Assembly (NCBI GenBank): GCA_011391865.1
Contig: JAABPV010000011.1
Span: 62,001-126,000, forward strand
DNA: 64,000 nt
Reading direction: 5' to 3'
Source of the DNA: Desulfobulbaceae bacterium
GTDB lineage: Bacteria; Desulfobacterota; Desulfobulbia; Desulfobulbales; Desulfobulbaceae
Under the pieces are notes generated by a model. It was not told the DNA's origin and searched no databases. It saw nothing but the letters and a program-made list of their open reading frames with translations. The translations under genes and the position numbers were made by a program. Shown here one piece after another: positions 51,252 to 55,914 of this stretch; the first letter of the stretch is position 1, and each line of letters begins with the position of its first letter.

Positions 51252-52586
51252 TCAGCAGCTCGCTCTGTCCAGAACAGCGCAGACCTTATCCCCGGCAATA
51301 TCCTTGCCAAAGACCGCTGCACCTTGCTTCATGGCGCAGAAGTCGCCGCACATGGTGCAGGTTTCGCTGCATTCCGGCATTCTGCTCCGGCGCAGATTCT
51401 GAGCGATTTCTGGGAAGAGGAGATGTTTGTCTAAATCCGTCCAGCGCATGTCCCGCCGCGCCTTGGCCGCCGCCTTCTCGTTGTCGCGGCGGTCAGGATA
51501 TTTGGCGATGTCGCCAGCCCGAACAGCCAAGCGGGCCGCACGCACGCCTTGACGGACATCCTCTTCATTGGGCAGGGCCAGATGCTCCGCCGGGGTGATG
51601 TAGCAGATCAAATCCGCGCCGTGGCGGGCGGACTGCGCCGCGCCAATGGCCGCGCTGATGTGGTCATAGCCTGCGCCGCTGTCCAAGGGCAGCGGGCCGA
51701 GCACATAATACGGCGCGTTGCCACTCATCCGTTTTTCGAGCAGGATGTTGGCGGCGATATCGTCCAGCGGCACGTGGCCGGGGCCTTCGACCATCATCTG
51801 GCAGCCCATGTTCCGTCCCAGCTCGGCCAGCTCACAGTTGATCACCATCTCCGCCACCTGCGCCCGGTCGTGGCTGTCATGAATAGCCCCGGCGCGGATG
51901 CCGTTGCCAAGCGAAAGCACGGCATCGTATTTCTTCATCAAGGCGCAAACCCGGTCGAACTGCTCATAGAGTGGATTCTCCTTGCCGGTGCTGTCCATCC
52001 ACGCAACCATAAAGGTGCCGCCTTTGGACACCAGCCCGCCGTAGCGGTAGCCCTGTTTGCGCAGGCGTTCGATTGTCCAGCGGTTGATGCCGCAGTGAAT
52101 GGCCATGAAGCTGATGCCGTCGGCAAGCTGCCGCTCGATGATCTCAAACAGCCGCTCCGGGTCGAGTTTGCCCGGATTGCGGTGTTGCAGCGCGGCTTCC
52201 CGGAACGCCTGATAGAGCGGCACCGTGCCCACCGGCAGCCGCGTCGCGGCCAGCACATTCCGGCGGACTGCGTCCAAATCACCGGCGGCGGACAGCTCCA
52301 TCAGAGTGTCCGCGCCTTCCTCTTCGGCAATCCGCGCTTTCCGCACTTCCAAGGCCATATCGCAGATGTCGGACGAAGTGCCGATGGAGGCGTTGACTTT
52401 CGTCCGCAGGCCCGTGCCAATGCCCACCGCCTTCTGCTGCGGTCGCTGCCGATGGCCGAGAATGACGATTTCGCCTGCCGCGACACGGCTGCGGACCAGC
52501 TCCGGCGCAAGGACCTCGTTCCGGGCGACCATGCTGATCTGCGCAGTGATGATGCCCTCGCGGGCTGCTTCCAGTTGGGTTTTCAT
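51252..52586 (-). CDS. bzaF: ThiC-family radical SAM enzyme, probably 5-hydroxybenzimidazole synthase BzaF
   Basis: The start at 52586 (MKTQLEAAREGIITAQISMV) gives 444 residues. ThiC-family motifs are clear: LRTKVNASIGTSSD, EEGADTLMELSAAGDLD, GTVPLYQAFREA, FMAIHCGINRWTIERL, MVEGPGHVPLDDI, PLDSGAGYDHISAAIGAAQS, and the C-terminal cluster motif CTMCGDFC with C-x2-C-x4-C. ThiC makes HMP phosphate for thiamine, while the paralog BzaF turns the same aminoimidazole ribotide into 5-hydroxybenzimidazole, the lower ligand of cobamides. Control by a cobalamin riboswitch, not a TPP one, favours BzaF. The segment SLGNGIRAGAIHDS also differs from the usual ThiC SLGDGLRPG. ThiC remains possible. Confidence 0.75.
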   Translation of the reverse strand: MKTQLEAAREGIITAQISMVARNEVLAPELVRSRVAAGEIVILGHRQRPQQKAVGIGTGLRTKVNASIGTSSDICDMALEVRKARIAEEEGADTLMELSAAGDLDAVRRNVLAATRLPVGTVPLYQAFREAALQHRNPGKLDPERLFEIIERQLADGISFMAIHCGINRWTIERLRKQGYRYGGLVSKGGTFMVAWMDSTGKENPLYEQFDRVCALMKKYDAVLSLGNGIRAGAIHDSHDRAQVAEMVINCELAELGRNMGCQMMVEGPGHVPLDDIAANILLEKRMSGNAPYYVLGPLPLDSGAGYDHISAAIGAAQSARHGADLICYITPAEHLALPNEEDVRQGVRAARLAVRAGDIAKYPDRRDNEKAAAKARRDMRWTDLDKHLLFPEIAQNLRRSRMPECSETCTMCGDFCAMKQGAAVFGKDIAGDKVCAVLDRASC

Positions 52587-52832
52587 GCTCCACCTCATTG
52601 TTTTTGCCCTGCCGGAAACAATGAGGCCCGGCAGAGCAGTACGCTCCCCGGAACCCTTTGCCATCGCGTTCCAATCCTGTTTGCAATCTTCAGTTCGTCT
52701 TCTGGCTTCCCCGCCTGTCCAGCGGCCTTCCCATTTTTCTGGTGAAAAACAGTGGCTGCAAACTGCTGAACAGGCATCTACGGGGTCACAGCATTGGGAA
52801 TGCCACGGATTCGCACCGTGTTCCGTTCACTG
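52587..52832 (-). promoter_or_regulatory. Cobalamin riboswitch with translational expression platform
   Basis: Read on the minus strand, conserved aptamer parts occur in order: GGTGCGAATCCGTG, GCTGTGACCCC, GCCACTG, TGGGAAGGC and GAAGCCAGAAGACG, ending near 52690. Downstream, an 11-bp perfect inverted repeat (52616-52626 with 52593-52603) hides the GAGG ribosome site. Its left arm also lies in the loop of another 7-bp stem (52628-52634 with 52609-52615), so the two hairpins exclude each other. This fits switching of translation start by an adenosylcobalamin-type ligand. Confidence 0.88.
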
Positions 52833-52841
52833 AATTGTCAT

Positions 52842-53294
52842 TTATAATTTAATTAAGTTCCACGCTTCTAAGAATTGTTTCTGAGTATCCTTGAAATTCC
52901 GTATTGCAGAGTCTTTCCGAGGAGAGCCATCGCTTTTGCAGCCTTTAAGCCACTCTGAATGAGTCGATGATACGTAATTAGCAACTATTTTACTTGGAAC
53001 GACATAATAATCAGGTCTTTTTCCGATTTCTTTTAAAGAAACAAAAACATAGTAATGGCTATCCGAGTGAAAATCCTCGGATTTTTTATTTAGAATCCAC
53101 TTGTCGCTTCCAAAATTATTTGTTTTCACTTGTATACTTACTGATCGAGCAGCATCCGCATCGCTGGCAATGATATCTATCCCCTTGCTGTTCCTTAGTG
53201 TTATTGATGCAATATAGCCTCTTAGACTAAGCTCTCCAGCAACAAGATACTCTCCAGCCACTCCTACCAATGTTGATGCTAATTTATTTTTCAT
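52842..53294 (-). CDS. Restriction-endonuclease-fold protein of unknown function
   Basis: The 150-residue, AT-rich gene encodes GVAGEYLVAGELSLRGY with E15, NSKGIDIIASD with D40, and VSIQVKTNN with Q55 and K57. The E...D...QxK spacing is that of PD-(D/E)XK nuclease-like domains of DUF4365 or similar type. It may be a nuclease or a remnant. Base use is lower in GC than neighbours, suggesting transfer. It lies between two copies of a riboswitch segment along with vapBC. Confidence 0.6.
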   Translation of the reverse strand: MKNKLASTLVGVAGEYLVAGELSLRGYIASITLRNSKGIDIIASDADAARSVSIQVKTNNFGSDKWILNKKSEDFHSDSHYYVFVSLKEIGKRPDYYVVPSKIVANYVSSTHSEWLKGCKSDGSPRKDSAIRNFKDTQKQFLEAWNLIKL

Positions 53295-53346
53295 TCTTCC
53301 TTGCTAACAGGAAGTTGTTGCAAAATCTATAATATTGCTGGTACGT

Positions 53347-53760
53347 TTAATTCGGAATGCTCGCCGCCCAGTTCTCAATTTGCAGACCGGGGATTCTCTG
53401 AAATTCCTTCTCGTTGTTGGTGACGAGGATCAATCCGCCGCTCAGGGCCTGCGCGGCAATCAGCATGTCTAACGGGCCGATGGGCTGCCCTTTTTTCTCC
53501 AGCTCCGCCCTGATGCCGCCATACGCCGCAACCGCTTTGGCATCATAAGGAAGAATGTCAAAAGGAGCAAGGAAAGCGTCCAGCCGTTCCTGATTTTCCT
53601 TTTTCCGGGAGCTTTTTGCCACGCCGTACTGCAACTCTGACGCAGAGATGACAGAAATGCCAATCTCGCCGGGCTGATGCTGTTTAAATTTACTGATGAG
53701 CGGCAAAGGTCGTTTGTTGAGCAGATAAATGCAGATACAGGTATCAAGCAAATAAATCAT
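53347..53760 (-). CDS. vapC: VapC-type PIN-domain toxin
   Basis: The start at 53760 (MIYLLDTCICIYLLNKRPLP) gives 137 residues. The PIN acidic residues are present: D6 in LLDTC, E in ISVISASELQYGV, D in IGPLDMLIAAQA and an NNEKEF end. VapC toxins cut tRNA or rRNA. It overlaps vapB by 17 bp. GGGAAGGG precedes the start. Confidence 0.92.
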   Translation of the reverse strand: MIYLLDTCICIYLLNKRPLPLISKFKQHQPGEIGISVISASELQYGVAKSSRKKENQERLDAFLAPFDILPYDAKAVAAYGGIRAELEKKGQPIGPLDMLIAAQALSGGLILVTNNEKEFQRIPGLQIENWAASIPN

Positions 53761-53992
53761 CAAGCCCTTCCCGTTTTTGCTGCTCATTTGGTTGGCTGCG
53801 TTCAGCAAGCAGCGGCTCCCCGCCCTTGAGCAGCATTTCCTCCCACGCATCCCAGACAGATTGATTTTTCGGCAGAATCAGGATACCAGCCCCGGCTCTC
53901 TTGATGAAGACTTCTTTACCTTCCAAGCGGAACTCCTTGGGCAGGCGGACTGCTTGGCTGCGGCCATTGGTGAACAATTTTGCGGTTTCCAT
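53744..53992 (-). CDS. vapB: VapB-type antitoxin (AbrB fold)
   Basis: The 82-residue protein begins METAKLFTNGRSQAVRLPKE, the swapped-hairpin AbrB DNA-binding motif, and continues RLEGKEVFIKRAGAGILILP. The C-terminal half would cover the VapC active site. The RBS GGGAG is 8 nt upstream. A truncated riboswitch copy lies 75 bp before it, so vapBC may now be read from a different leader. Confidence 0.9.
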   Translation of the reverse strand: METAKLFTNGRSQAVRLPKEFRLEGKEVFIKRAGAGILILPKNQSVWDAWEEMLLKGGEPLLAERSQPNEQQKREGLDDLFA

Positions 53993-54067
53993 GTGTCGGC
54001 TCCCTTTTACAGGCGAAGATTGATCTATATTTTACAGTATAGACCAATTGCGGCAAAAGTCAACATG

Positions 54068-54150
54068 CAGTGGCCACAACCTGCTGAACAGGCATCTCTG
54101 GGGTCACAGGATCGGGAAGGCCACTGATTTGCACTATGTTCCGTTCACTG
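54068..54150 (-). pseudogene. Truncated cobalamin riboswitch copy (5' part)
   Basis: These 83 bases match 52750-52832 without gaps at ~86% identity and contain the 5' half of the cobalamin aptamer, including GATGCCTGTTCAGCAG and ending at GCCACTG. The 3' half (GAAGCCAGAAGACG part) is missing. It begins right after the stop of the gene at 54151-54438 and is followed on the minus strand by vapB. Confidence 0.85.
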
Positions 54151-54438
54151 TTAACGCCAATGCGTTAAATACCATATCAACGACAAAGCAATTAGCAGAA
54201 GAACCGCATAGAGACATCGTTTCAATCCATTTCCTGAATTCGATCTAGGAAATGGGCTATATTGAGGTGTAGAGCTATATTTAGGCGCAGTAAATGTAGT
54301 GCAAGAACTTCTGTAACTTATACATTTATGCCTGCCACTGTTATCCAGTTCAAATGGCAGCCATTTGCCATTGCTCATTTCAGCCATGCGAATAGGATTT
54401 CCGCAATATTCGCAATCTCTTTCAAAATGATTTGCCAT
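54151..54438 (-). CDS. Small zinc-ribbon-like membrane protein
   Basis: The 95-residue protein begins MANHFERDCEYCGNPIRMAE and has KCISYRSSC, giving four Cys that could hold zinc. A Ser/Pro-rich linker leads to a C-terminal membrane segment (LYAVLLLIALSLIWYLTHW). I recognise no named family. The RBS AGAGG is near the start and gatA lies downstream of this position on the other side (15 bp). Confidence 0.55.
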   Translation of the reverse strand: MANHFERDCEYCGNPIRMAEMSNGKWLPFELDNSGRHKCISYRSSCTTFTAPKYSSTPQYSPFPRSNSGNGLKRCLYAVLLLIALSLIWYLTHWR

Positions 54439-54453
54439 TTTTTACCTCTTGTT

Positions 54454-55914
54454 TCATATCTCTGGCATTCTACCTTTCACTCCCGCCCGTTGCTCCAAAT
54501 TCCACGCAGCTTGGAACAGCGCGGTCTCGTTGAAATGACTGGCCTGCATCTGCATTCCAATCGGCAGCCCTTCTGCGGAGAAACCGCAAGGCACGGACAT
54601 GCCGGGAATTCCGGCCAGATTGGCGGAAATGGTGAGAATGTCTGACAGATATAAGGCGAGCGGATTGTCCGCCTTCTGGGCAAGCGGCCACGCCGGGGTC
54701 GGCGTGACCGGCGAAACCAGCACGTCACACTGGGCAAATGCCTTGGCGAAATCCTCGCGGATCAGCGTCCGCACCTGCGAAGCCTTTTTGTAATAAGCAT
54801 CGTAATACCCAGCAGAAAGCGCGTAGGTGCCAATCAAGATGCGCCGCTTGACCTCATCACCAAAGCCCTGCGAGCGGGTCTGCCGGTACATGTCAATCAG
54901 ACTGTCCGCCGCCGCCCGCCTGCCGTAGCGCACGCCGTCATAGCGGGCGAGGTTCGAGCTGGCCTCCGCCGATGCGATCAGATAATAGACAGCCACGCAG
55001 TATTCCGTGTGCGGCAGCGAAACCTCCACCAGCTCCGCACCTGCCTCCTTGAGCATGGCGATTCCGGCGCGGATGCTTTTCTCCACTTCCGCGTCTAATC
55101 CTTCGCCGAAATACTCGCGGGGAATGCCAACGCGCAGACCCGCCACGCCGTCCTGCAAGGCCGCGCTCCAGTCCGGCACGTCCTTTTTCGCCGATGTGGA
55201 ATCGCGCTCGTCATGCCCGCCGATGGCCTGCATCAGCAGGGCGCAGTCAGCCACATCTTTGGTCAGCGGCCCGACCTGATCCAGCGAGGAGGCGAAGGCC
55301 ACCAAGCCGTAGCGCGAAACCCGCCCATAGGTGGGTTTCATGCCGACCACGCCGCAGAGGGAGGCTGGCTGGCGAATTGAGCCGCCGGTGTCCGAGCCAA
55401 GCGAGGCCAAGCATTCGCCCGCTGCCACCGAGGCTGCCGAGCCGCCGCTGGAGCCGCCCGCCACGTAGCCGAGTTTCCACGGATTATGCGGAATTTTGTC
55501 CTTGTAGGCGCAGTTCTCGTTGGTCGAACCCATCGCGAATTCGTCCATGCTGACCTTGCCTATAATCACCGCGTCTTCAGCCAGCAGCTTCTCCACCACG
55601 GTGGCGTTGTAGGGCGGGATGAAGCCTTCCAGCATTTTCGAGCCGCAGGTGGTGGGCATGGTCGCGGTGCAGAGCACGTCCTTGATGGACAGCGGCAGTC
55701 CGCAGAGCAGTCCGCCTTGGCCTTGCGCCAGCTTCTTGTCCGCCTGCTCGGCTGCGGCCATCGCCTGCTCCGGGTGCAGGCTCAGATAAGCCCTGACCTT
55801 GTCTTCCACGTGGTCAATTCGGGCCAGCAGCGATTCGGTAAGGGCTGTCGCGGTGATTTCCCGCGCCGCCAGCTTCTGCTGCGCCTGCCGCAGGGTGAGG
55901 GTGTGCAAATTCAT
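54454..55914 (-). CDS. gatA: Glutamyl-tRNA(Gln) amidotransferase subunit A
   Basis: The 486-residue amidase has the Ser-Ser-Lys triad: K78 in LPLSIKDV, S155 in GGSSGGS and S179 in GSDTGGSIRQPA. Family blocks NKPSYGRVS-like (MKPTYGRVSRYG) and PTPAWPLAQKAD follow. GatCAB converts Glu-tRNA(Gln) to Gln-tRNA(Gln). gatB and gatC are not adjacent. yajC lies upstream by 119 bp. Confidence 0.95.
   Translation of the reverse strand: MNLHTLTLRQAQQKLAAREITATALTESLLARIDHVEDKVRAYLSLHPEQAMAAAEQADKKLAQGQGGLLCGLPLSIKDVLCTATMPTTCGSKMLEGFIPPYNATVVEKLLAEDAVIIGKVSMDEFAMGSTNENCAYKDKIPHNPWKLGYVAGGSSGGSAASVAAGECLASLGSDTGGSIRQPASLCGVVGMKPTYGRVSRYGLVAFASSLDQVGPLTKDVADCALLMQAIGGHDERDSTSAKKDVPDWSAALQDGVAGLRVGIPREYFGEGLDAEVEKSIRAGIAMLKEAGAELVEVSLPHTEYCVAVYYLIASAEASSNLARYDGVRYGRRAAADSLIDMYRQTRSQGFGDEVKRRILIGTYALSAGYYDAYYKKASQVRTLIREDFAKAFAQCDVLVSPVTPTPAWPLAQKADNPLALYLSDILTISANLAGIPGMSVPCGFSAEGLPIGMQMQASHFNETALFQAAWNLEQRAGVKGRMPEI

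Follow-up and report, generated by a model that had tools for sequence, protein, structure and literature searches.

Insertion with a long, variable target duplication of ~100 bp is described for restriction-modification (RM) systems in the accessible portions of two papers (PMC3874152; PMC3031569), which attribute it to Nobusato et al. 2000 and Furuta et al. 2010. The accessible portion of a 2009 review, which cites the same RM work, states that RM systems have an apparent mobility like that of toxin-antitoxin (TA) systems (PMC2654758). Among the described processes, this RM insertion appears to be the closest to the one proposed here for a vapBC locus in the window, the whole stretch of 64,000 nucleotides that was analyzed. 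As far as those portions go, the likeness lies in an addictive gene pair, no transposase, variable direct repeats of ~100 bp and single-copy relatives, whereas the cargo here is a type II TA pair and one of the targets is a riboswitch. We found bracketing repeats of 83 nt and 86% identity at the locus, relatives with a single copy, and seven unlike targets of vapBC.

Such a footprint was not found for TA pairs in the accessible portions of PMC3874152, PMC3031569 and PMC2654758; only the open literature was covered, and a prior report is possible. Literature titles and abstracts held nothing relevant on riboswitches as integration sites.

Layout of the gatA-riboswitch interval

The protein of the ThiC-family gene in the window had its best matches in Candidatus Electronema aureum GS (GS), Electronema sp. 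KV (KV) and Desulfobulbus sp. F5 (F5), followed by Electrothrix; the record named Desulfobulbus sp. F5 was placed in the window's genus by a genome tool. Judged by these matches, the source genome is assigned to a cable bacterium of the genus Candidatus Electronema. With curated models, the ThiC-family gene scored over the cut-off for ThiC and under that for BzaB. Since a B12 riboswitch lies upstream of it and a second ThiC is found elsewhere in the genome (contig C33), the gene is probably bzaF (B12 lower ligand). The features of the locus are as follows.

54454..55914, minus strand: gatA (amidase), the left border of the variable interval; Pfam Amidase, 511 bits
54151..54438, minus strand: ORF95, a small cargo gene from the ORF list, at this place in the window only
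54068..54150, minus strand: putative left target-duplication copy, a decayed riboswitch 5' half; 86% ungapped repeat
54036..54063, minus strand: predicted vapBC promoter, TTGACT-16-TATACT; promoter scan, 10/12 matches
53744..53992, minus strand: vapB antitoxin; Pfam MazE_antitoxin, NCBIfam TA_anti_VapB 66.8 (cut-off 60)
53347..53760, minus strand: vapC toxin, PIN domain, tRNA(fMet)-endonuclease type; Pfam PIN, 75 bits
52842..53294, minus strand: ORF150, a PD-(D/E)XK-like gene; GE...D...IQVK motif
52675..52849, minus strand: full cobalamin riboswitch; RF00174, 62 bits, E 6e-13, cut-off 31.5
52750..52832, minus strand: putative right target-duplication copy, within the intact riboswitch; P3/P4 pairs all intact
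51252..52664, minus strand: ThiC-family gene under riboswitch control, probably bzaF; Pfam ThiC_Rad_SAM, 565 bits

The order on the minus strand is gatA, ORF95, the 83-nt fragment, vapB, vapC, ORF150, the cobalamin riboswitch and the ThiC-family gene. The gatA neighbour is also present in GS, F5 and a further Electronema genome, G002. ORF95 had zero matches in Pfam and NCBIfam.

Both the PIN toxin and the VapB antitoxin scored over curated cut-offs (for the toxin, 180.7 against 140 with NCBIfam NF047863). The proteins are those of known VapBC systems, type II TA pairs with a tRNA(fMet)-specific VapC. The promoter, which is kept in F5, G002 and KV, looks autoregulatory, and a near-palindrome overlaps and follows its -10 element. 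The proteins are ordinary, and the insertion footprint is the unusual feature here.

An earlier reading of the sequence only had made the nuclease-like ORF150 a part of the vapBC module. This did not hold, as ORF150 is missing from F5 and G002, both of which have vapBC with the fragment. No homologue of ORF150 was found in the other four Electronema genomes; therefore it was not part of the vapBC insertion and would have arrived separately. Its motif is retained in five homologues, and it matched Mrr_cat_2 at 15 bits, under the cut-off; a single-sequence structure model (pLDDT 47) was too poor for a fold search. Relatives of ORF150 were found neither in phage records nor in viral contigs. The same reading had described the DNA between the copies as lower in GC, which is correct for ORF150 (0.37) and incorrect for vapBC (0.52; whole window, 0.59). 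ORF95, upstream of the fragment, has a GC content of 0.39.

Riboswitch copies in the window and in relatives

The 83-position ungapped match between 52750-52832 and 54068-54150, put at ~86% in the sequence-only reading, was confirmed, as was its remark that both copies lie near stop codons: one ORF ends at 52842, and ORF95 ends at 54151 with its stop codon abutting the fragment. In a whole-genome BLAST, the riboswitch 5' region matched two places only (E 4e-58 and 2e-21; next match, E 1.9), which rules out a dispersed family of riboswitch fragments in this genome. The full copy, at 62 bits, is like the RF00174 riboswitches known before thiC/bzaF, and the same arrangement is found in Electrothrix and KV. 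The second copy differs from them in being a decayed half aptamer under the cut-off. It scored 17 bits and, as had been read from the sequence, keeps only the aptamer 5' half and precedes vapB.

Compared with the full copies of GS and the window, the fragments of the window and F5 have five derived sites in common, including one that breaks P4. In the window and G002 fragments, P3 is also broken, and the G002 fragment carries an internal deletion. Both P3 and P4 are unbroken in all full riboswitch copies. With 17 bits in the window, 24.8 bits for RF00174 in F5 and P4 broken, the fragment does not qualify as a second functional or tandem cobalamin riboswitch; it is a decayed relic and not a working riboswitch.

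In three species, the fragment directly precedes vapBC, as might be expected of a working regulator, either a truncated aptamer or a small RNA, that couples B12 status to vapBC. However, the fragment stops 4 bases short of the -35 box in the vapBC promoter and is therefore outside any transcript that starts from this promoter. In addition, it lacks the aptamer 3' half, P3 or P4 is broken in the fragments of all three species, and vapBC elsewhere is without such an element. A regulatory role is thus extremely improbable in our judgment, and the stranded fragment probably does nothing.

In F5, the order is gatA, a different 269-aa ORF, the fragment, vapBC, the riboswitch and bzaF. In G002, it is gatA, a 333-aa ORF, the internally deleted fragment, vapBC and a cut-off riboswitch start; bzaF was not found in this 78% complete genome. 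GS has gatA, a 166-aa ORF and a single riboswitch, with vapBC absent here. KV has a single bzaF riboswitch, with gatA absent at this place, and the Electrothrix genomes have one bzaF riboswitch apiece. Where the fragment meets vapBC, the sequence is GGCC(A/G)CTGC(A/T)TGTTGAC in the window, F5 and G002. Draft genomes may misplace repeats; the three assemblies agree at the riboswitch locus.

This comparison bears out the earlier proposal that an insertion had duplicated part of the riboswitch: GS, KV and Electrothrix, which lack vapBC here, have one riboswitch, and F5 and G002 have vapBC together with a fragment at the same junction. No relative carried both copies without the module, the pattern that the proposal had itself named as speaking against it; this empty-site comparison covers the riboswitch target only. 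Since five derived sites are common to the window and F5 fragments, the duplication appears to be older than the species split and not specific to the window. The same vapBC in KV is at a different site that has no riboswitch sequence, with a 5' fragment of hemB on either side (a name that comes from reading a short translated fragment, with no family search behind it). KV and Electrothrix vapBC occur without the riboswitch fragment, and a travelling leader of vapBC itself was rejected on this ground.

The interval between gatA and the riboswitch holds a different, mostly unknown ORF in each Electronema genome: a zinc-ribbon membrane protein (L041 5247-5747), an unknown protein (L043 3983-4792), a CoiA-like protein (L159 1009-2010) and, in the window (54151-54438), the small unknown ORF95. 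In G002 (L159, contig C40, 2821-3850), the cut-off riboswitch is fused to the gene of a Tae4-type amidase effector and to proC. In relatives, the Tae4/proC segment before which this second riboswitch fragment breaks off is located elsewhere; a cassette array was rejected, and the fragment is best read as a rearrangement. In the Electrothrix genome G021, the promoter and first ~50 nt of the bzaF riboswitch lie apart from bzaF (L204, contig C139, 2160-2250), and this displaced start runs up to a repeated CTGGGGTAAA tract. At locus L042, the tandem repeats that precede the riboswitch are an unrelated minisatellite.

Identity between GS and F5 was 96.7% and 92.5% at two other loci and 78% at bzaF, and identity between the window and GS was 92% at bzaF and gatA and 77% at proC-nadK. 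The gatA-bzaF region (window 51252-55914 compared with L041 and L043) is mosaic, which makes exchange between species likely; such exchange could also have spread the fragment. The mosaic locus, together with the identity of the F5 and GS riboswitches over their first 51 nt, would also fit homologous integration, in which a DNA circle or donor fragment of a related strain, with vapBC beside riboswitch sequence, entered by a single crossover within the riboswitch and left the repeat as a by-product. However, such integration needs a donor in which vapBC already stood beside a riboswitch, and it does not account for the recurrence of this footprint at unrelated targets such as hemB and fabD. We regard it as unlikely.

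Direct repeats around TA loci

Homologues of vapB were collected from 258 Desulfobulbales genomes, and the surrounding DNA was compared by matching the 400 nt upstream of vapB against the 600 nt downstream of vapC. A repeat was scored if it reached 33 nt and 85% identity, thresholds that had been set after the first cases had been seen. Direct repeats bracketed vapBC at 10 of 51 loci (the window, F5, G002, KV, G021, G087, G022, G213, G191 and G044); two further cases were weak and short. When shared events were counted once, there were seven targets among about 46 loci: the riboswitch, the hemB 5' end, the 5' end of an AlbA-type gene, the 3' end of the upstream gene in G022, the fabD 3' end, the 3' end of a permease gene, and the target in G044.

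Repeat lengths around vapBC spanned 33-554 bp, and the identity between copies was at least 85%. In G087, an intact downstream gene has its 5' end repeated as the left copy; in G213 and G191, it is an intact upstream gene whose 3' end recurs as the right copy (fabD-like and permease-like, respectively, as named from reading the sequence). A whole target on one side and a piece of it on the other are as long target duplication predicts. The repeat sequences at different targets have no mutual similarity and therefore do not represent one dispersed repeat.

The recurrence at unrelated targets also bears on the claim of the sequence-only reading that the riboswitch might be a special landing site. 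In a fuller version of that claim, the riboswitch 5' half would be an att-like, site-specific landing pad, with cargo arriving as cassettes before riboswitch copies. Differing ORFs before the riboswitch copies in the window, F5, G002 and GS, as well as the further 5' fragment elsewhere in G021, could be taken in its favor. However, no recombinase or integrase was seen at the locus, the window genome has no other fragment, and any insertion that spared the riboswitch would give similar joins between cargo and riboswitch. The same footprint flanks vapBC at many targets other than riboswitches, and the claim was dropped; we give a landing pad little chance.

ParE-type loci, tried as a negative TA control, failed as such, being positive at the same rate as vapBC (14 of 68, or about 11 of 66 on a conservative count, as two loci had been fetched twice and one was a satellite), and the effect is therefore not confined to vapBC. 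At five ParE-type loci (L318, L347, L289, L338 and L328), the repeats were 57-170 nt long and started 1-73 nt past the toxin gene. Shifted positions in the same loci were positive in 4 of 427 cases at any length. Among 80 loci fetched with bzaF, 9 of 984 positions were positive, and 0 of 984 at no less than 33 nt and 85% identity. For ordinary ORFs, the count was 7 of 295, four of them being vapBC cases; about 3 of 291 were left, two of which are the same repeat. With sliding positions as the reference, Fisher tests on the conservative counts gave 2e-10 and 3e-14; with other ORFs as the reference, they gave 5e-5 and 9e-7. These values overstate certainty because the thresholds were chosen after the first cases. 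The results suggested that two unrelated TA families often have such footprints around them and that other genes seldom do. Roughly one in six to one in five of the related TA pairs, at unrelated places, had a footprint of this kind. Most TA loci surveyed had no repeat, either by decay or by another route of arrival.

No transposase was seen among the ORFs between the two repeats, and a by-eye comparison of the ends of the vapBC cassettes revealed no common motif. With the transposase absent, no common end motif, and a duplication far longer than usual, the footprint is not that of a classical transposon or insertion sequence.

Proposed insertion and its meaning

From the comparison of these loci, it is fairly likely that vapBC is a transposase-free cassette whose insertion, in the stretch from gatA to the bzaF riboswitch, made a long target duplication and left a decayed, non-working copy. 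An ancestor of several Electronema species would have gained a bare vapBC at this place. The insertion, without a transposase of its own, would have duplicated 83 bp or more of the target, over the aptamer 5' half, in direct orientation. The intact copy would have remained with bzaF, and the other would have been stranded upstream of the vapBC promoter and then decayed. Cargo genes, including ORF150, which now separates vapBC from the right copy in the window, may have arrived and left separately in the gatA-riboswitch interval.

As a general process, two steps may be envisaged. In the first, insertion would yield a target-cassette-target structure, a molecular route that we infer from the footprint. 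In the second, recombination between the repeats would delete the cassette, but the toxin would punish loss of the TA pair; we infer that addiction blocks the deletion in this way, and repeat structures would then survive more often at TA pairs than at other genes. Such survivorship alone, without an insertion route specific to TA pairs, could be the source of the enrichment. That type II TA modules generally move as transposase-free cassettes with long target duplication, and that post-segregational killing preserves the repeats, is a tentative proposal to which we give somewhat less than an even chance.

The riboswitch is incidental as a target, and the point of interest is the general footprint. 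The riboswitch copy is the footprint of one insertion that can be dated to before a species split. The footprint bears on how bare TA pairs pass from chromosome to chromosome when no transposase is involved, and TA insertion can now be studied by counts over many genomes and by experiments with laboratory strains. If the general proposal is true, the VapBC and ParE-type modules of the Desulfobulbales would be the first surveyed cases of TA insertion with long target duplication.
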